From assembly GCA_020283715.1 (NCBI GenBank), contig JAIQCW010000176.1:1-13912 (forward strand): DNA of 13,912 nt. Direction: 5' to 3'. Shown piece by piece: positions 1,585 to 13,566 of the stretch (its first letter is position 1; every line of letters starts with the position of its first letter). Both the position numbers and the translations under genes were made by a program. Source of the stretch: Cytauxzoon felis (Eukaryota; Apicomplexa; Aconoidasida; Piroplasmida; Theileriidae). The notes under the pieces are model-generated. The model was not told the origin of the DNA and ran no database searches. It saw nothing but the letters and a program-made list of their open reading frames with translations.

Positions 1585-1784
1585 GTTTTCATGAAATTAA
1601 ATTATCCTAATCATTATCACCTATATCCAATCACCATGACATTATACAACCTCCATCAATCATAAAAAATATATCAACCGAAATTAAATCATACAATTTT
1701 AAAATAAAAGAATTATAATCTATTATTATCTAGAAAAATGACCTTACTATATAAATATTTATTACCGAACGAACAAATGTAAAC
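1585..1784. other. gene-free 5' flank of the succinyl-CoA ligase gene
   Basis: About 200 nt between the start codon of the succinyl-CoA ligase gene and repeat island A, presumably its 5' UTR and promoter. I see no open frame, tRNA or recognisable motif. The plus strand is strikingly C-rich over 1601-1680 (22 C against 2 G by hand count), part of the skew pattern around the islands. Confidence 0.5.
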
Positions 1785-2215
1785 TCCACCTGAGGTTACA
1801 ATCCTACTCTCCTTCCACTTCCACCTATCTTCTCCACTAGGCGTGGAGCCTCTTCTATTTACTTCCCCTTCCAGCTCCCGTAGATCGCTTACAGGTATTT
1901 CACTTCCACTTTAGGTCCAATCACTAACCTCATCTCCAACCTTACCTTCGTCCTGCAGACAGCTCCTCTATTTAGCTCCCCCTCAAGCTCCCAGAGATCG
2001 CTCTCGGGTTTTCCACCTGAGGTCGCATCCAACATATCCTTAGAACCATCTTCCATCATTCCCATGATGGATGATCCATCACTACCTTCTCACCGCCACG
2101 ATCTCTGGGAGTGGCTATACTCTTTAGAGATAGGTAATTAAAAGAGCTGTCTGCAAGACAAGGAGAGGTGGAGGTAACTTCAGGTGGATGATAGTTGGAT
2201 TGGACCTTGAGTGGA
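1785..2215. repeat. repeat island A (intergenic)
   Basis: This 431-nt island lies between the succinyl-CoA ligase start and the CK2 alpha stop. It opens with TCCACCTGAGGTTACAATCC and closes with GGATTGGACCTTGAGTGGA, so its ends are inverted repeats. Shared modules inside are CCACTAGGCGTGGAG, TTTACTTCCCCTTCCAGCTC, CGTCCTGCAGACAGCTCC (left) answered by AGAGCTGTCTGCAAGAC (right), and CATCATTCCCATGATGG. The last belongs to core type 1, which runs here in the opposite orientation to islands B and E. I see no target-site duplication. The left half is C-rich and the right half G-rich on the plus strand. Confidence 0.85.
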
Positions 2216-2280
2216 CTGGTGGAAATGATTATAGAGTATATATAAGATGTTAATAGACGATTATTTTTATTTAGTGTGTA

Positions 2281-3477
2281 TTATTTATCATGTACATCAT
2301 GAAAGAATGGATGTTCCATGGCTTCGAGTGGTGTGATACGTTGTGTATGATCATATACAAGCATACGATCGATAAGATCGAGTACTTCGGGTGATATAAG
2401 ATGTTGATTATCATGATGTATAAATTTAGACCATGGTTTTTTACTATGTGTACCTAATATTTCTTGATATGCTGATGTAAATTTGAGTCCATATTTATTA
2501 AAATAATCATGTAATGCATCAGTACCTAATACTTTAGCGATTTTAACTAATTGATCATAATTATCATGTCCATAAAAGAATGGTTCTTTTTTAAATATAA
2601 TACCAGCAAGCATACAACCAATAGACCAAATATCTAAACTATAATCATAATATCTCATATCAACTAATAATTCTGGTCCTTTATAATATCTAGTAGCAAC
2701 ACGTACACTATATTCTTGTTCAGGATGATAAAATTCAGCTAAACCCCAATCAATTAATCTAATTTGTTTTTTTTCATGATCTATCATAACATTATGTGGT
2801 TTAATATCACGATGCATAATACCTTGACTATGACAATAATTCATAGTTTTTAATAATTGATATATATAATATTTTATATCTTGTATAGTTAATGTAGGAT
2901 ATAATGTTTTAAAATCTGTATTATTAACATATTCAAATACTAATGATGGTGTTCTACTTTGTGGATCTTTAACTATATCTAATAATTGTATTATATTTGG
3001 TCCACCTTTTAAATTTTGTAATATTTTTATTTCTCTTTTTATTTTTTTCTTTTTTACTGGTTTAAGTATTTTTACTACACATTTTTCTTTTGTTTTTATA
3101 TTTAATGCTTCAAATACTTCACTAAATTTACCACGTCCTATCTTACGTACAATCTCATATGAATCTGGTACATTCCATTTTAATGTTATATTCTCATAAT
3201 CCCAATATTCTGAACCTTTTTTAATATTTACATCAGCATAATATTTTGGTAATATTATTGATATATCCTTATTAGGATATTTAGAATCATTATCACATTC
3301 CATATTATCCATTTCTATATAACCATATGTATCTATTAATATTTCATCATCTTCATATGATATTAATACATCACTATTCAAATTATTTTTCCTATAATGT
3401 CTAAATATACCATCCAAATTCGATATTATAAATGTACTATATATTATTATACCATATCCATTTATTATACTTCTCAT
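2281..3477 (-). CDS. CK2A: casein kinase 2 catalytic (alpha) subunit with N-terminal extension
   Basis: An uninterrupted 398-aa serine/threonine kinase. CK2 hallmarks are plain: glycine loop GRGKFSEVF (114-122), catalytic Lys136, the basic run [15 protein letters not shown] (139-153), [11 protein letters not shown] (183-193), HRDIKPHN with Asp224, DWG rather than DFG (243-245), [13 protein letters not shown] (259-271) and the GCMLAG region (287-292). Conserved EYWDYE (90-95) marks where human CK2 alpha begins to align; aligning YADVN with human YTDVN leaves about 68 extra N-terminal residues. Within this extension residues 7-20 ([14 protein letters not shown]) are hydrophobic, like a signal sequence or anchor, followed by an acidic stretch (41-70). 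A comparable extension was reported for Theileria parva CK2 alpha, as I recall. It is the only long intronless gene here. Its 3' flank is repeat island A and its 5' flank island B. Confidence 0.96.
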
Positions 3478-3669
3478 ACGATTATTTATCGTATTACTAA
3501 CATTTAAACTCTATATTTCTAATGGATTCTATTACCTTATCATCAACTCCCCATACAATATCTAATATTAATCACACTTTATTATATATAAATAATAAAA
3601 TTATAACATCTATTATATATAAAATAATATCATATTTTTTATAATTCATCCAAATATATACAATTATAC
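3478..3669. other. gene-free 5' flank of CK2 alpha
   Basis: About 190 nt of AT-rich sequence between the CK2 alpha start and repeat island B, presumably promoter and 5' UTR. It is strongly C-biased on the plus strand (21 C against 3 G over 3481-3600). A 22-nt stretch at 3494-3515 recurs with one mismatch at 7196-7217. No RNA gene or open frame is evident. Confidence 0.4.
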
Positions 3670-4080
3670 TCCACTCGAGGTTACAACCTTGTCTTCATCT
3701 TACAGCTCCACCTGAGGTCCATTCCACTCCTTCTCCACCTCTTATTCGTCTTGCAGACAGATTCCACCCGAGGTTACAACCTTGTCTTCCACTCGCCGTG
3801 GAGGCTTCTCCTAATTACCTATCTCTAAAGAGTAAAGCCACTCCCAGAGATCGTGGTGAAGGTAGTGATGGATCATCCATCATGGGAATGATGGAAGATG
3901 GTGATAAGGATGTGATGGATGTAACCTCAAGTGGAATGAAGTGTAGTACTGGACCTCGGGTGGAATACCTGGAAGCGATCTACGGGAGCTGGAAGGGGAA
4001 GTAAATAGAGAAGCTGTCTGCAAGACGACATCAGGTGGAACGACGAGTGGGAAGGAGAGTAGGATTGGACCTCGAGTGGA
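3670..4080. repeat. repeat island B (intergenic)
   Basis: This 411-nt island lies between the CK2 alpha start and the BiP stop. Its ends are TCCACTCGAGGTTACAACC and GGATTGGACCTCGAGTGGA. A perfect 15-nt inverted repeat, TCGTCTTGCAGACAG (3746-3760) against CTGTCTGCAAGACGA (4014-4028), brackets the interior. It carries core type 1: CTATCTCTAAAGAGTA, CCACTCCCAGAGATCGTGG and GGATCATCCATCATGGGAAT, nearly identical to island E. The right half has GAAGCGATCTACGGGAGCTG and GGAAGGGGAAGTAAATAGAG. The open frame across it is judged non-coding because the same DNA is a dispersed repeat. Confidence 0.85.
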
Positions 4081-4141
4081 GGATGATTGAGGATGGTTTT
4101 GTGTATATATTTAGATATTAATGTATTAGATTGTAAACAGA

Positions 4142-6734
4142 TTATAATTCATCACTATATCCAGTGTCATCATCGTCGGTATCGCTTCTACCATCAGTGG
4201 ATGATCCTCCATAGAGTTTGGAGATGATTGGATTGCATACATCTTCTAATTCTTTTTGTTTAGCATTGATATCTTCAGTTTCAGCATTAGGATTAGATGT
4301 AAGCCATGATTCAACATCAGATAGTGTTCTAAGTATAGTACTGCGATCTTCTTCTTCAATCTTTTGTCCAAGTTTATCACTATCTTTAACAGTTTTCTTC
4401 ATACTATCTATATATGCATCTAATGCCTGTCTTGCTTGTACATTTTCAAATACTAATTTATCCTTCTCAGCATTAGCCTCAGCATCCTTTACCATTCTAT
4501 CAATCTCTTCCTGACTTAATCTACCCTTTTCTGGGGTAATTACTATATTCTCCTTCTTACCACTACCCTTCTCATGAGCATGAACACTCAATATACCATT
4601 TGTATCTATGTTAAATGTAACCTCAATCTGTGGTACACCTCTCGGTGCTGGCGGTATACCAGTCAAGTCAAATTTACCTAAATAATTATATTAACATATA
4701 TATAGAGAGAAGTAGTTCATCTTCTACCTGAAGTTACATCCACCGAAGGTCGTCTTGCAGACAGCTTCTCTATTTAGCTCTTCATCCGCTTCCCTGAGAT
4801 CAGCTACGGGTTTCCACTTGAGGTCCAATCACTATCTTCCGCAACTTCATTTTTATCTCCAAACTTTGAAGAAATTCATCATTTCTGGGGAAATTCATGA
4901 AGATTGTGCAATGATTATTGGATGTATTTCTGATGTCAATACTTCATTGAAAAGGAATTTGATGATTGTATTTAATATACTCATCCTCACTTTAATCCAA
5001 TTTATATTCATTGGGATTTCCTTTCAAACATGAATATCGTCACTTTGGTCTTATATCGCCGAGATTAGATTTATAACCTCGAGTGGAACCTGGAAGCGAT
5101 CTATGGGAGCTGGAAGGGGAAGTAAATAAAAGAGCTCCATGCAATGGAAAAGATAGACCTCAGGTGGAAGGCGAGTGGAACATCCTTCGTATTGGTTTCG
5201 ATCTTACCTAGGTGTGTATTATGTTTGGTGAGTTTGCGTTCTCCTTGGAAGACTTGTATGGTAACGGTTGTTTGATTATCGGTGGATGTTGAGAAGATTT
5301 GTGATTTATTAGCTGGTATCATGGTATTTCTTTCGATAATGACAGACATTACACCACCTAATGTTTCTATACCTAATGATAATGGGCAGACATCTAATAA
5401 TAATAGATCTTGTGATGATTCACCAGATAATATACCACCTTGTATAGCTGCACCATATGCAACAGCTTCATCAGGATTAATATTATGATCAGGTTCTTTA
5501 CCAAAAAATTCTTTTATCATATCACGTATTTTAGGTATTCTAGTAGAACCACCAACTAGGACAACTTGATCTATATCACGTTTTTCTAATTTAGCATCTT
5601 TCAATACATTTTTTACTGTCTCCATAGTTTGTTCAAATAAATCTTCATTTAAACTTTCAAATTTTGCACGTGTTAATGTCTCTTTAAGTGTTAAACCATC
5701 AATTAAATTTTCAATTTCAATTGTTGTTTCAGTTTTTGCAGATAAATTACGTTTAGCTAATTCAACTTCAATACGTAATTTTTGTAGTGCAGTTTTATCT
5801 GATCTTAAATTAACCCCACTATGTTTCTTTTGAAATAATTTAATTAAATGATCCATAACTCTACGATCAAAATCTTCACCACCTAAATGTGTATCACCAC
5901 CAGTAGCTAATACTTCAAATACACCAGAATCTAATAATAATATAGATACATCAAATGTACCACCACCTAAATCATATACTAATATATTAGATTCTACATT
6001 CGTTTTATCTATACCATAAGCTATAGCAGCAGCTGTTGGTTCATTAATAATACGTACAACATCTAAACCAGCAATTTTACCTGCATCCTTTGTAGCTTGT
6101 CTTTGTGAATCATTAAAATAAGCTGGTACTGTTATAATCGCTCTACTAACCTCTTTACCCAAATAATTTTCAGCAATTGTTTTCATCTTTGTCAATACCA
6201 TAGCTGATATCTCCTCTGGTGCATAATCCTTAATAGAACCAGAATCTTTAACTTGAATATAAGGACGAGTACCCTTATTTACAATATTATAAGGTAATAA
6301 TTTCAAGTCATTTTGTACATCACTATCATTATATTTGCGTCCAATCAAACGTTTAACATCAAATACAGTATTCTCTGCATTCACAGTTGCCTCAACCTTT
6401 GCAGCATGACCTATAATATATTTAAGCTATACAATATATAAATATATATTATACTCACCTACTTTATGAAGACCATCAACAAATGATACATATGATGGTG
6501 TAATACGAGCACCATTCTCATCAGCAATAATCTCTACCCTTCCATTCTTATAAACACCAACACAACTATAAGTCGTACCCAAATCTATACCAATAATAGG
6601 ACCTTGCGCTATAATAATAATATATAATAACCTTAATCACCAAACATACGTGGACTAGCATAACTGTATAGATGACCAAAAAAATAGAGTATAATCAAGT
6701 AGAACGAAATATTGCGAAATATGTATATATTCAT
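4142..6734 (-). CDS. BIP: BiP/GRP78, endoplasmic reticulum Hsp70 chaperone, 4 exons
   Basis: This is the ER-lumen Hsp70 that folds secretory proteins. Exons in transcript order are 6641-6734, 6459-6608, 5208-6410 and 4142-4677. Introns are 32, 48 and 530 nt. The exons sum to 1983 nt, giving 660 aa, close to human BiP (654). Exon 1 supplies a clear signal peptide, [20 protein letters not shown] followed by HLYSYA, with likely cleavage near residue 26. The nucleotide-binding domain shows [10 protein letters not shown] (37-46), VPAYFND (176-182), [12 protein letters not shown] (203-214) and [10 protein letters not shown] (228-237). The interdomain linker DLLLLDV lies at about 416-422, and the substrate domain has [12 protein letters not shown]. 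The protein ends in GYSDEL, an ER-retrieval signal; cytosolic Hsp70s end in EEVD. The third intron is oversized because it contains repeat island C; without the island it would be about 72 nt. Confidence 0.96.
4723..5180. repeat. repeat island C inside BiP intron 3
   Basis: The island fills most of a 530-nt intron (4678-5207). It opens with a degenerate TCTACCTGAAGTT and closes with ACCTCAGGTGGA plus GCGAGTGGAA. The left side has GTCGTCTTGCAGACAGCTTC and the right side GAAGCGATCTATGGGAGCTG and GGAAGGGGAAGTAAATA. Its interior is core type 2, shared with island D: TATTTCTGATGTCAATACTT and GGAATTTGATGATTGTATTT. Core 2 reads on the plus strand, which is antisense to BiP, so island orientation is independent of the host gene. 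Confidence 0.8.
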
Positions 6735-7329
6735 ATTATTATAATAATAACTCTATCTTAATCAAATCTATTGAAGAATATTACATAACTGTCATTTAAA
6801 AACAATGAGACAATAATTTGTATATTATATAAGATGTTAATTTAAATCAAAATATATTTGACACAAATAATATTATTTTCTTCTTATTTTAATTCATATG
6901 GTCACTATTGTTCAACACATAATCAGCGTGTTATTGGATCATTCTATGTTACACCACTATCCCCATCTCGTCTCCTGCATTATTCATCTATAATCAAGGT
7001 CCACCCCTGTGCCTAATTAGTCATCATATGAAAAATTATTATTTATACATTTTGTTTTATTACCATTAATTATTTCTACTGTAATATATTATACATCTAA
7101 ATAACATTCATGTATTAATATAATTAAGATGGATGTCGTCGGTGATTATACGTTAGACACGTCTAAATGTTATCATATTATCTGATCCATGTAATTTACT
7201 AACATTTAAATTCTATAAAATCTCTAAATTATATTATATATGTATATACAACTTCATTTACTACCATCAACTCAAACTACACATACGAATTATTGCTACT
7301 TGATGGTGGACGTGTATCATACAATTAAA
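6735..7329. other. gene-free interval upstream of BiP
   Basis: 595 nt between the BiP start and the stop of the twin-CX9C gene, presumably BiP promoter and 5' UTR plus the neighbour's 3' UTR. No repeat island lies here. A cluster richer in G+C (about 6950-7020) contains CCACCCCTGTGCC, that is GGCACAGGGGTGG on the BiP strand, only loosely like the G-box reported upstream of Plasmodium heat-shock genes. An inverted repeat TTAGAC-AC-GTCTAA lies at 7153-7166. A short frame at 7129 (19 codons including its stop) has no splice partner. I see no RNA gene. Confidence 0.35.
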
Positions 7330-7575
7330 TTACTCATTAATACAACATTCATATAATTTAAAGTGATTACTACAGCGTATAATGTCTGTTGCATTCTTCT
7401 CTTTTGCGTAACGTTCACCAAACTCCTTTATACATGACAGCAACTGCTGTTCATAATGTTTACACTTTAGATTAACTGGATCACTTGTGGATCCTTTATT
7501 AGATTTCGAGTAGTTTGTATTCTCAGATGTACAGTAGTCTTGTAGAAACTCATCCGATAATACTATTTTAGACAT
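7330..7575 (-). CDS. small twin-CX9C (CHCH-type) protein, probably mitochondrial intermembrane space
   Basis: An 81-aa intronless frame. It has Cys38-X9-Cys48 and Cys68-X9-Cys78, separated by 19 residues, plus an extra Cys77 and Cys15. Twin CX9C motifs form a disulphide-linked helical hairpin (CHCH fold). Such proteins are imported and oxidised by the intermembrane-space relay, and many serve cytochrome oxidase assembly or copper handling. There is no N-terminal presequence, as is usual for this class; residues 1-30 are polar. The overall sequence does not let me choose among COX19, CMC or CHCHD families, so no symbol is given. The first ATG of the frame fits the expected length. The composition, with Cys, His and Glu, is unlike random AT-rich intergenic frames. 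The fold call is fairly firm; the specific role is unknown. Confidence 0.75.
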   Translation of the reverse strand: MSKIVLSDEFLQDYCTSENTNYSKSNKGSTSDPVNLKCKHYEQQLLSCIKEFGERYAKEKNATDIIRCSNHFKLYECCINE

Positions 7576-7993
7576 TATTGAAACGGATGGACAGATGGTT
7601 ATTTATGTATTTAAATAAAAAATTATGCCCTTTGACATTAAAATATACCGCCTTGTAGATGTAAATTTATAGTAGTCACCAAAGTCTATTTTATATATCA
7701 ATTGAATATATAATTCCTATAGCTGTAATTGGTCAATGGGAGATTGTAATGAATATACAATGAAATAAGAGTAAAATGTGTCAACATTCCATATGAATAA
7801 ATCGATAGAGATTAAAGTAGTCGATGAGCAGATAAAAAAATCACATACCTAATAATCTTTAGATTAATGATAAATTATACATTATTATTATATATATAAT
7901 CTTAATTAATATTTATAAATGTAAAACTAGACTAAAATAGAATACATGTCAAATAGAATCTTAATCATTCAAACAAGTATAGATAATTTTTAT
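7576..7993. other. gene-free interval
   Basis: 418 nt of AT-rich DNA between the start of the twin-CX9C gene and the 3' end of the small minus-strand gene at 7994-8242. It probably holds the CX9C promoter. The plus strand is G-biased around 7730-7840. No repeat island, RNA gene or convincing open frame was seen. Confidence 0.35.
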
Positions 7994-8242
7994 CTAAAGT
8001 TGAAAATAAATTGAAATATAATATAATAAATTATTTAAATGAACATTTAAAATTATTAATTTAATTAAATAATTTTTTTTTAGTAATTGATATTGATTTA
8101 TTATATCCACATATTTATAATGTGTATGATCTTCTATAATTTTTAATGCATTATTAATCTGTTGTCTAATGATTTCTAAATTAAAATTTTATTATTATTA
8201 ATTTGTATAATAATATAAACCTGATTCATTAATTTTATACAT
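7994..8242 (-). CDS. possible 2-exon gene for a 67-residue protein of unknown function
   Basis: I do not recognise the product. Exon 1 (8221-8242) encodes MYKINES and one extra base. A 45-nt GT-AG intron (8176-8220, GTTTAT to TTTAG) joins in phase to exon 2 (7994-8175), which ends in TAG. The spliced frame is 204 nt. The segment EIIRQQINNALKIIEDHTHY, followed by KYVDIINQYQLLKK, is rich in Glu, Gln, His and Asp and looks helical. Frames arising by chance in this AT-rich DNA are dominated by Asn, Lys, Ile, Tyr and Phe, so coding is plausible. The C-terminus (KLIILNVHLNNLLYYISIYF) is hydrophobic and could be a membrane helix, or could mark drift past the real end into a further splice. The start codon is 64 nt from that of the divergent gene at 8307. 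Confidence 0.45.
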
Positions 8243-8306
8243 TTTGAAAAAAATAATAATTTTAAATAATGTACCCACAAATTATTAATTATTATTAAAT
8301 ATACTA

Positions 8307-8573
8307 ATGGTAGAGGGTATTGTAAATATTAATAATAAAATTCCACAAGATTGTCTCTTTTGTAGAATAACGGGTACATTTTTCTTATCAGGAATATCAG
8401 TATATTCATTTTATTGTTATAAAAAATCTAGAAATAAACCAATCGATAAATTATTTTCAATGGTATTTGGTATCTCCACACTCTCATTAGGTATTATCAT
8501 CATATTTTCTATTACACATCTCATATCAACAGCTATATGTAGAGGTTTTAATCTCGGCCTATTCAAAAAATAA
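8307..8573 (+). CDS. small two-helix CxxC membrane protein, DMAC1/TMEM261 (DUF4536)-like
   Basis: An 88-aa frame. DCLFCR (15-20, Cys16-x-x-Cys19) stands before a first hydrophobic segment (about 23-38) ending in a basic loop (KKSRNKPIDK). A second segment follows at about 49-74 (KLFSMVFGISTLSLGIIIIF). The layout CxxCRxxG, one helix, a basic loop, then a second helix with an internal Gly resembles human DMAC1/TMEM261 (DUF4536), a complex I membrane-arm assembly factor. Apicomplexans lack canonical complex I, so if the resemblance is real the role must be different; a mitochondrial inner-membrane location is inferred. The TAA stop overlaps the ATG of CCZ1 by one base (TAATG). The gene is reasonably sure; the family assignment is tentative. 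Confidence 0.6.
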   Translation: MVEGIVNINNKIPQDCLFCRITGTFFLSGISVYSFYCYKKSRNKPIDKLFSMVFGISTLSLGIIIIFSITHLISTAICRGFNLGLFKK

Positions 8574-11237
8574 TGAATAAAGTCAATGCCATATTCATCT
8601 TCGATCTAGATCAAACTTGTAATCTCAATCATCCAACCGATCAACAAATACAGGTATTACATATCTAATATCTCCACTCGAAGTCCAATCCTACTATCGT
8701 TCCACCTGAGGTTACATTCCTGCCGTCAGCTTCTCTATTTACTTCCCCTTCCAGCTCCCGTAGATCGCTTCCAGGTATTCCACTTCCACTTGAGGTCTAA
8801 TCACTGTTTTTCACTAACTTCATTTTTACCTCCAAAATTTGAAGGAATTTCATCAATTTCTGGGGAAACTCATGACAATATTTCAGTGACCATTGAATGT
8901 ATTTCTGATGTCAATACTTCATTGAAGAGGAATTTGATGATTGTATTTAGTTTACTGAATTCCATTAATTCTCATTTATATTCATTGAGATATCCTTACA
9001 AACATTGATTCCGTCACTTTATCCTTATCTCGACGAGTTATGAATTAACCTCAGGTGGAACCTGGAAGCGATCTACGGGAGCTGGAAGGGGAAGTAATTA
9101 GAAGAGGCCACCACGGCGAGTGGAAGGACCTCGGGTGGAATAGCGAGTGGAAAGATATGTGGATTGTAACTTCGAGTGGAATAGACATAATTTATGATAT
9201 GATTAAATGTGTATATAGAGATGTAAATTATTATATTATTATCCTGAGACAAGATCGATAGATGATCAATTATCACATTTTGGTTTGATAGAGGGTTTGA
9301 TATCATTATCGAAGTGAGTTTGAAAGATTTTATATTATAAATGATATATATAATGATAGTACATTTACTACTGATGATGTAGATTATATAAAATCTAAAT
9401 TATATACAACAGTAATTATACGTTGGATACGTAATATATATTTAACAGTGGTATGTAATATAATTTAATATAATTTATAATTAATAGTCTTTTATAAATA
9501 ATAAATTATTAGATGAAAAGACAGATTATAGTTGTTATTGGAGAAATAATATATATAAAATTATATTAAAAAATTCAATTAGGATATTTGAATTATTATA
9601 TGGTAATATTTATAATCATTTATATAATAATATAAATAATAATGATTATTTAATTAAATTAAAATTTTATTTAAATGAATTTTTCCCCACTTTTATATCT
9701 AAATCTATAGAAAATGGTTCAAATATATTAAAAGGTTTATTAATTTAATTTCATATTCATTTATTTATAGATTTAGATTCATGTAGACGATTTTATGGTA
9801 ATATTTCAACAACATTAGATGTACAAGTTTGTTTATTATTTTTTATTCATTATATATTTTTTTTTAACCTCCTCTAGATTATTATCGATGAATTATGTAA
9901 TCAATTCAAATCAATCTCAAATACAATCTTAATATATAATAAACAATTAATACATACAACGTAAGATTATCAATATATATATATATACATCAATCTTATA
10001 TAGACTCAATAATCAAAATATGATCACAATTTATCTCTTTCTCATCAAACATCGAGGAGAGGTATCATCAATATATATATTGATACTCCACTCGAAGTCC
10101 ATCCGATGACCGTTGGGTCTAGGTCCACCTGAGGTCCAATCCAACTTTTTTCGTCCTGCCGTCAGCTCTTCCCCACCTGAGGTTACAACCTTGTCTTCCA
10201 CTCGCCGTGGAGGCTTCTTCTATTTATCTATCTCTAAAGAGTATAGCCACTCCCGGAGATCGTGGTGAAGGTAGTGATGGATCATCCATCATGGGAATGA
10301 TGGAAGATGGTGATAAGGATGTGTTGGATGTAACCTCAGGTGGAATGAAGAGTAGTACTGGACCTCAGGTGGAACCCGCAGCTGATCTCAGGGAAGCGGA
10401 GGGGGAAGTAAATAGAGAAGCTGTCTGCAAGACGAAGATAAGGATGGATTGGAGAGTAGTACAGGACCTCGAGTGGAGAGTAGAATATAGATTTTTTTTG
10501 TAAATGATATAAATATGATAGGTATCTCGTAATAGATCATATTGTATAAAATGGTTGGATACGTGTGAATTATTATTGGTTGATTCTGTTGATGGTAATA
10601 TATTTAGTCCTAGGGTATATATAGATGGAAATGAGTATATAATGTGTATATTAATTATTGGTGAATGTATATTGGTATTATTATTGAATGATGTTGATGA
10701 TATATTATTGGTATATTTATTTATTTATTATTTATAATAAAATTATTATAGACAATGACAAATATACGTGAATATGTAGAGAATATGCCATTTGGTTTAA
10801 TAAAATTGAATGAAATATTATCGGGTATGAATAATAATTCAATTATAAAATCAAAAAATATAAAAACATTTACAATAAATAAATTAACAAATACAATAAA
10901 TAGGTATATAAAATTTAATCATTTTATATTTTTTTTTAATGTTTATAGTGTTGGATTTGATTTAATTGATGATATGAAATTAGAAGAATTATCAATTATA
11001 TATGATTTACATAATTTAATTAAATTATCTAGAGATGATATTATGAAAATACATTTAAAAATTAAAAATGGATGGATCAATACAAAAATATCAAATCATA
11101 GAGAAGTATATTATATCAATGATCATAAAACATTATCCAATACCAAAAGTATGCACATAACACCCAACATCATCATCACTATAGATGAATTCGATCACTT
11201 TATCAATACCTATCTCAATGGTGTCTACTTTATCTAA
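8573..11237 (+). CDS. CCZ1: vacuolar fusion protein CCZ1 homologue, 10 exons
   Basis: With MON1, CCZ1 forms the exchange factor that activates Rab7 on late endosomes and vacuoles. Exons are 8573-8653, 9219-9313, 9360-9450, 9488-9734, 9771-9826, 9878-9960, 10004-10061, 10522-10710, 10752-10903 and 10949-11237. All junctions are GT-AG and in phase; the total is 1341 nt, 446 aa (human 482). The match to human CCZ1 runs in order: KLLYYYPETRS for KILFYHPNE; FGLIEGLISLSNTF for VGLCEAIVQFTRTF; ILIYNKQLIHTTLNNQNM for FLYNDQLIWSGLEQDDM; FSPRVYIDGNEY for FPKIFVNTDDTY; and NGWINTKISNHREVYYI for DYWVVGKKSDRRELYVI. Introns 1 (565 nt) and 7 (460 nt) contain islands D and E; the other seven are 36-51 nt. 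Intron 9 (45 nt) has no in-frame stop and could be retained, giving 461 aa. Exon edges are inferred, not confirmed by transcripts. Confidence 0.85.
8673..9180. repeat. repeat island D inside CCZ1 intron 1
   Basis: A 508-nt island within the 565-nt intron 8654-9218. It starts TCCACTCGAAGTCCAATCC and ends GGATTGTAACTTCGAGTGGA. The left half has TTCCACCTGAGGTTACATTC, CCTGCCGTCAGCTTCTC and TTTACTTCCCCTTCCAGCTC. The right half has GAAGCGATCTACGGGAGCTG, GGAAGGGGAAGTAATTAG and GCCACCACGGCGAGTGG. Core type 2 (about 8815-9040) matches the core of island C closely, including TATTTCTGATGTCAATACTT. Removing the island would leave a normal intron of about 57 nt. Confidence 0.85.
10087..10477. repeat. repeat island E inside CCZ1 intron 7
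   Basis: A 391-nt island within intron 10062-10521. It starts TCCACTCGAAGTCC and ends GGACCTCGAGTGGA. It carries CCTGCCGTCAGCTCTTC, CCACTCGCCGTGGAGGCTTC and core type 1 (about 10229-10370), near-identical to island B. The right half has CCCGCAGCTGATCTCAGGGA, GCGGAGGGGGAAGTAAATAG and GAAGCTGTCTGCAAGACGA. An 18-nt palindrome, ATCAATATATATATTGAT (10067-10084), abuts its left end. Without the island the intron would be about 69 nt. Confidence 0.85.
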
Positions 11238-11260
11238 TTCAATATAGAAGTAGCTCATAT

Positions 11261-11819
11261 TCCACTCGAGGTTACAACCACCGAAGGTCGTCCTCCACCT
11301 GAGGTCCATTAATCACACGTCCTTTTCCACTCGCCGTGGAGGCTCTCCACTTGAGGTTAGTCCTGCCGTCAGCTTCTCTATTTACCTATCTCTAAAGAGT
11401 AAAGCCACTCCCGGAGATCGTGGCGAAATATCCGAGACGATCCATGGGAGTCGAGGTGAGGTAAATAAGGAAGCCACCACGGCTAGTGGAAAAGAGATTA
11501 GGATTGGACCTCGAGTGGAAACCCGTAGCTGATCTCAGGGAAGCGGATGGGGAAGCAAATAGAGAAGGCCACCACGGCTAGTGGAAGAGTAGATGTTTGT
11601 GATGTAACCTCAAGTGGAAATAATGGGGTAAAAATGGATTATGGGGATAAAAAACCTCATAATAAAGATATTAAACCCCATTATAAACATGATATACAAG
11701 TTGATGATGAGTACATGACCTCGAGTGGAACCCGCAGCTGATCTCAGGGAAGCGGAGGGGGAAGTAAATAGAAGAGCTGACGGCAGGACGACATTCTGTG
11801 GATTGGACATCGAGTGGAA
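11261..11819. repeat. repeat island F between convergent CCZ1 and TTC4, partly duplicated
   Basis: At 559 nt this is the largest island, in the 617-nt gap between two convergent stops. It starts TCCACTCGAGGTTACAACC and ends GGATTGGACATCGAGTGGA. TCCTGCCGTCAGCT (11361-11374) is answered exactly by AGCTGACGGCAGGA (11775-11788). It contains a shortened core type 1 (CTATCTCTAAAGAGTAAAGC, then CCACTCCCGGAGATCGTGG). The right-half module AGCTGATCTCAGGGAAGCGG occurs twice, near 11528 and 11737, about 210 nt apart. A stretch of about 95 nt not seen in the other islands (about 11620-11715, rich in AAAACC, CATAAT and GATAT) separates the copies. This suggests two islands merged, or an internal duplication. 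Confidence 0.85.
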
Positions 11820-11854
11820 CTAACTTCATTTATAATAAGATTATTATGATTGAA

Positions 11855-13566
11855 TTATGATATGATTTCGTATTGTTTTAGGGCATTTTCATCTTGTACG
11901 ATATGTATGATAATGACTTTGAAAATGAGATTGATTTTATTAATGACATTGGATAGATGATTATTGACATTAAATTTAATTAATTCATTATCATTAATCT
12001 AAGTGTTGGATGATAAATTATAAATTAACAAACTTGATAATAACATAATGAATTATTACGATTAAATTGTATTGGATAATTATTATCTATAAACATTACA
12101 TCTAAATGATCACCAATACAAGTATTATAATTATAATCTTCAATATAATCTGTTATATTCATTTCATCATATCTAATAATAATAATGATTTAATTAATAA
12201 ATTTATAAACGTACATAAATAAACATGATGTATGTATTATACCATCCAATTCATAAAAATTAATCTTTTGTGATTCAGGTATCTTATACAATTCCGGTAA
12301 TAACTTAATATCTAATAAATATATATTAATCCATCTTATACCACATACTCTTTAATCTCAATAAATTCATCAATCTCATCTGTGATTCATACTCCTAATA
12401 AATAATTTAACTCAATCCACTCGAAGTCCTCCACCTGAGGTCCAATCCTTACCACTCGAGGTCTAATCCAACTTTCTTCATCCTGCCGTCAGCTCTCCAC
12501 CTGAGGTTACAATCTCTGTTCCACTCGCCGTGGAGGCTTCTCCTAATTACCTATCTCTAAAGAGTATAGCCACTCCCAGAGATCGTGGCGATGATAGAGG
12601 TTAAAATGATGTAACCTCAAGTGGACTACCCGTAGCTGATCTCAGGGAAGCGGAGGGGGAAGTAAATAGAAGAGCTGACGGCAGGACGACCTCAGGTGGA
12701 ACGCCTAGTGGAAAGGGAGATGTAGATGTAACCTCAGGTGGAGTCAGTATATTCATCAACAAACTTCTTTTTGTAATAAATTTAATTTATTATTTTGAAT
12801 TTCCTTTTCTTTTTCGAATTCTTTGAGTTTTTTGGTAACTTTGTGATAGAGTTTGCCGAATTCTTCATCGACATTATAGAGTACATTACTGTTGATATCA
12901 TTTGAGTTTGTAATGGTTTTGATACATTCGACACAGAATAGTAGTGATTGTTTATATAATGATATATTGAATGATGCTAGAGATCCACGATAATATCTTT
13001 AGATGAATGTATTAATGGATATAAGACATACGCTTTATAATCATGTTTATTAAATTTAATACTTCTTTTACAATCATCTATACATTTAACATATTGTCCT
13101 AAGTATATAATTTATTATCATTTAATGTATACATTTACCTAATTTAAGATATACATATGCACGATTAGAATATAATTGTGAATTTAATAAATTATCTTTA
13201 CATTCAGCTTGTATACCATTTGTATAACTTGATATTGCAGCATCATAAAATCTTTTTCCATCATTTACATAACCATTACCAACATCCTTTAGTAATAAAT
13301 AATTAAAGATTATACTCAACATACTTTATATTTTAATGCTATAGAATCTCTAGTTTCACCTTCTGCTAATAATTTATATAGAGCTTCTAAATCTTCATTT
13401 GAACTTATATCATCTATTATATATATAATATATATCAATATTATAATAATATACTTGGTATTTCATCCATAAATAATGGATGTTCAATATCTGCATACTC
13501 TCTAGTCAATTTTTCCAGAAATTCATCTGATATTTCATAGTCCTCATCATCATTAACACTCGGCAT
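11855..13566 (-). CDS. TTC4: TTC4/Cns1-type TPR co-chaperone, 9 exons
   Basis: TTC4 (yeast Cns1) links Hsp90 and Hsp70 through a TPR domain. Exons in transcript order are 13455-13566, 13325-13413, 13139-13286, 13032-13098, 12765-12996, 12349-12394, 12215-12311, 12034-12172 and 11855-11998. Introns are 41, 38, 40, 35, 370, 37, 42 and 35 nt. The total is 1074 nt, 357 aa (human 387). The N-terminus has HPLFMDEIP, like the human VPLFMSRAP. Three TPRs span about residues 62-172. The residues that clamp the EEVD tail are all present: Lys67, Asn71, Asn108, Lys138 and Arg142. A charged helix follows (about 191-231). The C-terminal wheel domain aligns with human TTC4: LDGIIHTSCLFIYDEMNITD, then DHLDVMF for DHLMVMF. 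An in-frame TAA lies upstream of the chosen ATG. Intron 5 holds island G. Confidence 0.88.
12416..12742. repeat. repeat island G inside TTC4 intron 5
   Basis: A 327-nt island within the 370-nt intron 12395-12764; only about 43 nt of ordinary intron remains outside it. Core 12-mers in the left orientation lie at 12416, 12430, about 12451 and 12496; in the right orientation they end at 12625, 12700 and 12742. TCCTGCCGTCAGCTCT (12481-12496) and AGAGCTGACGGCAGGA (12671-12686) form a perfect 16-nt inverted repeat. The interior has CCACTCGCCGTGGAGGCTTC, CTATCTCTAAAGAGTA and CCACTCCCAGAGATCGTGG, a short core type 1. The right half has AGCTGATCTCAGGGAAGCGG. Confidence 0.87.

Follow-up and report, generated by a model that had tools for sequence, protein, structure and literature searches.

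Short-range strand asymmetry beside inverted-repeat islands in the genome of Cytauxzoon felis

Background

The window examined here, a stretch of 13,912 nucleotides from the piroplasmid Cytauxzoon felis (contig JAIQCW010000176.1), holds seven repeat islands (termed here A to G) interspersed among genes, including one for BiP. A sequence-only reading of the window had claimed that each island sits at an abrupt inversion of GC skew (i.e., of the relative excess of guanine over cytosine), with a C-rich left flank and a G-rich right flank on the plus strand, and had favoured a bidirectional replication origin as the cause, naming recurrent double-strand breaks or gene conversion and bidirectional transcription as alternatives. 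This analysis follows that claim through 253.9 kb of the genome and considers which process might underlie it.

Skew jumps serve to locate replication origins and promoters. The nuclear skew described here is short-range, very strong, tied to a defined repeat and apparent at silent sites whichever strand a gene is on. That the G-rich, C-poor skew running outward from the islands extends to silent gene sites points to an effect of the islands on mutation in the adjoining DNA. If the number of complete islands obtained by scaling from the sequence read (about 3,100-3,700 genome-wide) holds, then one small genome provides thousands of replicate loci at which to examine why mutation is strand-asymmetric. 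Codon use near islands would also mirror mutation rather than codon selection.

Methods

The C. felis genome is reported to comprise 9.1 Mb at 31.8% GC (PMC3748084); the assembly used here comprises 8.62 Mb in 181 contigs. Two PCR primers published for the C. felis gene cf76 (PMC3748084) have one exact match each in this assembly, where they face each other at a distance of 2.3 kb, which makes C. felis very probably its source. Four stretches totalling 253.9 kb were read: the window (C104:1-13912), C162:1-140000, C37:80001-140000 and C45:1-40000. These were picked from contigs matched by an island search, so that island density is possibly overestimated. Islands were located by two detectors, one based on clusters of motif words (110 complete islands) and a second that yielded 118 islands; a complete island is one in which C-form motifs on the left are followed by G-form motifs on the right. 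The outward strand is the strand that runs 5'-to-3' away from an island. Codon positions were assigned with a simple gene finder for which 75 long open frames served as the training set; the C45 stretch was omitted from codon-position skew, outward-strand base composition and gene-arrangement counts.

Results

Each island is a cluster of a 12-base motif, which occurs as TCCACYYGAGGT on the left and as its complement, ACCTCRRGTGGA, on the right. Genome-wide there are 8,274 exact copies of this motif (4,106 and 4,168 by strand) and no exact copy of the same pattern read backwards. Among 100 places listed on contigs C1-C4, neighbouring motifs less than 450 bp apart were arranged minus-then-plus 21 times and plus-then-minus never. 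The sequence read contains 131 clusters, which occupy 14% of its bases: 110 carry terminal inverted repeats (C-form then G-form), 8 are C-only and 7 G-only (each with at least two words), 3 are single words and 3 have another order. Island polarity is thus nearly fixed in the sequence read, and all seven islands of the window conform to it. Complete islands recur about every 2.3 kb (110 in 253.9 kb); the C45 stretch, which is 74% predicted coding, has just three, unlike C162 and C37.

The arms of the islands are mosaics of a few modules, whose purine-rich form points outward (65% purine on the outward strand). One conserved stretch, GATCYNNGGGA, has 247 copies in the four stretches (e.g., at 3973-3991 and 11435-11453 of the window), and the bases flanking it covary: the first three pairs are complementary in 242, 239 and 239 copies, where column frequencies predict 186, 112 and 110, and a fourth pair is complementary in 113 copies against 80 expected. 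A second inverted pair (CCAC/GTGG, GTCT/AGAC, CCAT/ATGG or CTCT/AGAG) was found in 187 of 265 copies, in a search that itself demanded pairing. Since such complementary pairs covary, the dyad symmetry of the modules is preserved while their sequence varies, in the manner of hairpins or of sites bound by dimeric proteins. There were no Rfam matches at the gathering threshold within the window, nor any at E<=5 within positions 9940-12800, and RNAalifold, applied to a MAFFT alignment of 41 modules, returned no structure, only short stems scattered over gaps. An excess of wobble pairs (44 versus 13) was set aside as a test of which strand would be the RNA, since the bias of the flanks leads one to expect it in any case. 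Outward-strand changes within the arm modules of the four stretches comprise 61 A-to-G, 52 G-to-A, 20 T-to-C and 10 C-to-T.

In 11 islands (8 on C37, 1 on C162 and 2 in the window) the arms enclose a 225-bp core, in plus orientation in 8 and minus in 3. Genome-wide there are 399 candidate places for this core, the best 40 of which were scored and, apart from the core of island C itself, are 83-88% identical to that core. Mismatches by phase (147, 178 and 159) lack the clear three-base periodicity of protein-coding sequence. The islands are, then, a dispersed family of composite inverted-repeat elements, with modular outward arms that sometimes surround a 225-bp core.

With regard to gene setting, which was determined for 113 of 115 islands (two having no exon on one side), 10 islands lie between convergent genes, 8 between divergent genes, 38 are classed as tandem far, 32 are intron-like (closely between same-strand exons) and 25 share a gap. 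Because the reading frame is kept across only 14 of the 32 intron-like islands, little above one third, this class may include intergenic islands, or the predicted exon ends may be imprecise. Island C lies within an intron of the BiP gene, because the HSP70 profile breaks off at position 453 on one side of it (positions 45-453) and resumes at position 448 on the other (448-598); splice sites placed by eye are 28 and 75 bp outside the outermost words of the island. This confirms, for island C, the proposal that the two flanks of each of islands C, D, E and G belong to one gene. For the others the assignment is less secure: at island G only one exon (13122-13325) has TPR co-chaperone matches among solved structures, and the exon adjoining the island has no Pfam match; the name CCZ1 at islands D and E depends on one weak, sub-threshold match (Intu_longin_3, E 0.017), two other stretches tested having no Pfam match. 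The features of the window are given in Table 1, where a recount of the flanks reproduces 27 of 28 earlier hand counts exactly (the exception being the left flank of island C, with 23 rather than 24 G).

Table 1. Islands, cores and flanks in the window (positions refer to the whole stretch; C and G counts are for the plus strand)
Feature	Position	Strand	Description	Basis
Island A	1785..2216		intergenic; motif order CCCGG	motif cluster
Island B	3670..4081		intergenic; motif order CCCGGGG	motif cluster
Island C	4753..5179		within BiP intron; holds 225-bp core	word cluster; HSP70 profile runs on across island
Island D	8673..9180		holds 225-bp core	word cluster
Island E	10087..10478		motif order CCCGGG	motif cluster
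Island F	11261..11819		motif order CCCGGGG	motif cluster
Island G	12416..12743		motif order CCCCGGG	motif cluster
Island C central core	4845..5072	+	repeated unit	
Island D central core	8818..9037	+		82% identical to island C core
BiP intron containing island C	4678..5207	-	GTAAGA at 5207, TTTAG ending at 4678	splice sites by eye
A left flank	1601..1680		C22 G2	recount
A right flank	2221..2400		C17 G41	recount
B left flank	3481..3600		C21 G3	recount
B right flank	4081..4140		C1 G15	recount
C left flank	4501..4680		BiP exon; C48 G23	recount
C right flank	5221..5340		BiP exon; C11 G33	recount
D left flank	8461..8640		C38 G20	recount
D right flank	9181..9360		C10 G31	recount
E left flank	9901..10080		C29 G10	recount
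E right flank	10501..10680		C7 G38	recount
F left flank	11101..11220		C26 G10	recount
F right flank	11821..11940		C8 G19	recount
G left flank	12301..12410		C21 G2	recount
G right flank	12841..13020		C18 G35	recount

Of the 118 islands found by the second detector, 96 have a negative left and a positive right flank; the remainder are negative on both sides (10), positive on both sides (9), negative then zero (1), positive then negative (1) or too short to score (1). The inversion is therefore not shared by every island, and a jump of 0.7 over 250 bp is reached at 59 of the 118, and at 5 of the 7 in the window. A similar qualification applies to the claim that the halves of the islands themselves share this polarity, which is negative-to-positive in 89 of 118, reversed in 4 and otherwise in 25. 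Equally frequent jumps far from islands, which would have counted against the association, were not seen: of the strong negative-to-positive jumps, 59 are close to islands and 6 far from them (one of the 6 being an island missed by the detector), and of those in the opposite sense, 3 are close and 46 far. By another measure, a left skew of at most -0.3 together with a right skew of at least +0.3 (over 150 bp) is found at 46 of the 110 complete islands, but at just 0.07-1.3% of placements clear of islands within the four stretches. The link between strong jumps and islands applies to all of the sequence read except C45, whose three islands lack a strong jump. The description of polarity and flank skew, together with the flank composition and the one-sided half-islands treated below, is very nearly certain.

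For the 66 islands of C162 and C37, skew in four 50-bp bins is -0.35 to -0.38 on the left and +0.29 to +0.35 on the right, and an A/T bias matches it from 50 bp outward. The sequence-only reading had argued that coding strand cannot explain the switch; this is borne out at third codon positions. In plus genes, plus-strand skew at 0-100 and 100-200 bp is -0.57 and -0.58 to the left of islands and +0.75 and +0.77 to the right; the corresponding values for minus genes are -0.80 and -0.79 (left) and +0.66 and +0.51 (right). More than 1.2 kb from islands the skew is -0.13 to +0.22. Moreover, outward skew is +0.35 to +0.83 in every gene setting (convergent, divergent, tandem far, intron-like and shared gap; 113 islands). 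Coding strand is thus ruled out as the cause, in that the skew tracks the side of the island on either gene strand and in all gene settings. Codon positions 1 and 2 shift the same way as the third, but less.

Exon ends provide a control. At island-bearing gaps their outward third-position skew is +0.21 and +0.59, compared with -0.10 to +0.21 at island-free gaps more than 900 bp from any island. Where an island-free gap has another island closer than that, the value is -0.55 to +0.19, in keeping with an exon that leads towards that island.

At third positions of the outward strand, the first 200-300 bp past the arms are on average enriched in G and T and depleted of C and A, whichever way the gene runs. 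G rises to 0.23-0.28 within 150 bp, versus 0.07-0.16 beyond 700 bp, and C falls to 0.03-0.08, versus 0.10-0.15; third-position GC, which is 0.13-0.22 at 300-450 bp, climbs to 0.27-0.32 in the 100 bp nearest the islands. Outward runs of at least four A occur at 3.5-3.7 per kb within 200 bp and at 6.3-8.2 beyond, whereas T runs hardly differ. Ordinary coding strands 1-2 kb from islands show a bias that is weaker but of the same sense (third-position G 0.14-0.16 versus C 0.10; T 0.42-0.44 versus A 0.31-0.32). How far G gains over A on the outward strand within 150 bp varies with the base that follows: the odds ratios are 3.7-5.6 before a purine, 2.2-2.4 before C and 1.4-1.8 before T. This dependence may hint at the nature of the mutagenic process.

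Resolved into 25-bp bins, the outward skew at third positions begins at +0.44 (0-25 bp), reaches +0.67 to +0.80 (25-150 bp) and declines to +0.59 (175-225 bp), +0.35 (275-300 bp) and +0.14 (375-400 bp), after which it varies from -0.11 to +0.23. This range of about 300-400 bp does not depend on how far away the next island is (interval classes 0.5-1, 1-1.6, 1.6-3 and more than 3 kb; n=49, 29, 20 and 13), although the skew is stronger where islands are dense. Measured from the island edge, it ends at about 200 bp for islands shorter than 230 bp and at 250-300 bp for longer ones, beside which it is also stronger. The range is set from the edge of the island rather than from its centre, since a process fixed at the centre predicts the reverse (i.e., that longer islands have a shorter reach).

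Half-islands, that is, the 15 one-form clusters with at least two words, are informative about direction. (An initial set of 25 was discarded because it contained halves of long-core islands.) Two were dropped for short flanks, and in the remaining 13 the skew is +0.31+-0.05 on the outward side and +0.03+-0.07 at the back. The latter does not differ from zero (p 0.68) but does differ from -0.31 (p 0.0017), which is roughly what a symmetric centre predicts. Individual loci scatter widely, so that the one-sidedness is an average over the 13.

Discussion

Because the skew has a fixed range of about 350-400 bp and half-islands are one-sided on average, these observations fit two outward-pointing directional elements better than they fit a symmetric origin or break. 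As judged from composition near versus far from islands, the outward-strand bias would have arisen by A-to-G and C-to-T change. That the arms drive such a mutational process is the interpretation favoured here, with a probability of roughly 0.7.

As to what the arms might do, the leading candidate is offered tentatively, at somewhat less than even odds: outward non-coding transcription. Each arm would start, or admit, an RNA polymerase that travels outward and yields a short non-coding transcript; in the wake of the polymerase the outward non-template strand would be transiently single-stranded and repaired less well, and this exposed strand would gather deamination-type transitions. The strand that would be non-template under outward transcription does carry the excess of G and T, both at third positions and beside half-islands. 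The sign of the skew would fit either an outward polymerase with an exposed non-template strand or an outward lagging template; short outward transcription is favoured over replication forks because the range is bounded and half-islands are one-sided. A further and more doubtful proposal is that these repeats are selfish elements that act as directional mutators of their host, in which arms drive outward A-to-G and C-to-T change over about 300 bp and would have rewritten silent, and partly amino-acid-changing, exon sites beside some three thousand islands to a bias of mitochondrial size. (Strand bias of such size is known from mitochondria.)

Several results weigh against outward transcription. 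A T run, as in a terminator of the RNA polymerase III type, bounds the skew no better than does an A run. A strict R-loop zone pattern was found in 0 of 220 cases, and all six outward arms whose RNA folding was tried fold no better than shuffled sequences (z -0.39 to +2.69). Inside the arms, A-to-G exceeds T-to-C 1.6-fold, but C-to-T occurs at 0.35 times the rate of G-to-A, which is not the pattern of the flanks. It is because the terminator, R-loop and folding tests lent no support, and because the spectrum within arms differs from that in flanks, that transcription is held at somewhat less than even odds. The directionality of the arms likewise meets with objections: half-islands may be what is left of complete ones; a left-right difference in motif number fails to predict the difference in skew among 94 complete islands (rho 0.02); and the correlation of motif dose with skew is about equal across sides (0.16 and 0.24) and on the same side (0.25 and 0.21).

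The replication origin proposed by the sequence-only reading retains the negative-to-positive sign of the jumps, but no longer leads: skew linked to forks should extend to the next termination zone, yet it ends at about 350-400 bp, and half-islands are on average one-sided. In a modified form, in which islands are initiation sites where mutagenesis is short-range and inverts its polarity without long fork asymmetry, this explanation has in its favour the sign, the climb of third-position GC towards islands, and the precedent of human constitutive origins, where strand biases invert and are accompanied by skews and a local rise in GC (PMC9645720). It is nonetheless improbable, given the one-sided half-islands and a skew that stays near zero past 400 bp in long intervals too; with a spacing of 2.3 kb between complete islands, the origins would, moreover, be very densely set. 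Much the same low credence is assigned to recurrent breaks or gene conversion, in which the strand resynthesised outward would gather polymerase errors (G opposite T and T opposite G). It is indeed the strand carrying the bias that would be resynthesised, and the mosaic make-up of the arms, from modules held in common, is what recombination between copies would produce; a break centre, however, predicts an effect on both sides, contrary to the average half-island, and deamination damage to resected, single-stranded 3' tails would, from strand geometry, give the opposite sign.

Two other explanations dispense with a mutator. Selection on RNA might lead sequence beside a hairpin-forming intron to avoid pairing with the nearer arm; read in the direction of the mRNA, the flank before the intron is C-rich and the one after it G-rich, as avoidance requires, but the skew is also present at convergent (+0.35, n=10) and divergent (+0.63, n=8) islands, where nothing obliges arms and exons to be on one transcript, making this very unlikely. 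Least credible of all is that islands insert preferentially where the skew already switches sign: the sign changes do coincide with islands, but with only 6 strong negative-to-positive jumps off islands in 254 kb, nearly all such targets would have to be occupied, and the skew increases with island size.

Outward mutation driven by the arms may also be compared with known systems. Transcription-associated strand asymmetry produces an excess of G and T on the non-template strand. Island flanks are likewise G/T-rich on the strand that would be non-template, in the same sense as ordinary coding strands, but their skew is far stronger, limited to about 300 bp and independent of host-gene direction. 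Human constitutive origins share with the islands a skew that flips sign at the site and a local rise in GC; the islands differ from the account in PMC9645720 in that their effect extends over a few hundred bp, is tied to a defined repeat and is one-sided at half-sites. Introner elements (described in Amoebophrya, PMC7789003, and surveyed in PMC9860276) are, like the islands, repeats with inverted motifs, present in many copies, some of them intronic. Many islands, however, are not intronic, and in the one intron examined (BiP) the splice sites are outside the island, whereas an introner would be expected to bring its own. Flank skew is not among the introner features described in the available text of these two papers, and the main text of the survey mentions neither Cytauxzoon nor Theileria nor Apicomplexa. 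In Theileria parva and T. annulata, island-sized elements are unlikely to be common in introns, because introns there average just 76 and 64 bp (22 and 21% GC; 1,487 orthologous introns, PMC2612703).

Miniature inverted-repeat transposable elements (MITEs) and foldback elements consist of inverted arms around an optional core. The islands share this plan, with a core in either orientation, but their arms are mosaics of modules; no target-site duplication was obvious, by eye only, at the islands of the window. Searches of openly licensed papers listed no account of the islands or their flank skew. A search of the assembly with RVT_1 gave a single reverse transcriptase match (C56:73693-74436, in an open frame of 1010 aa), which may be telomerase. 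The window also encodes a CK2 alpha-like protein, for which the highest identities among 120 relatives listed are 83% over 83% (a metagenome protein) and 81% over 92% (Theileria annulata).

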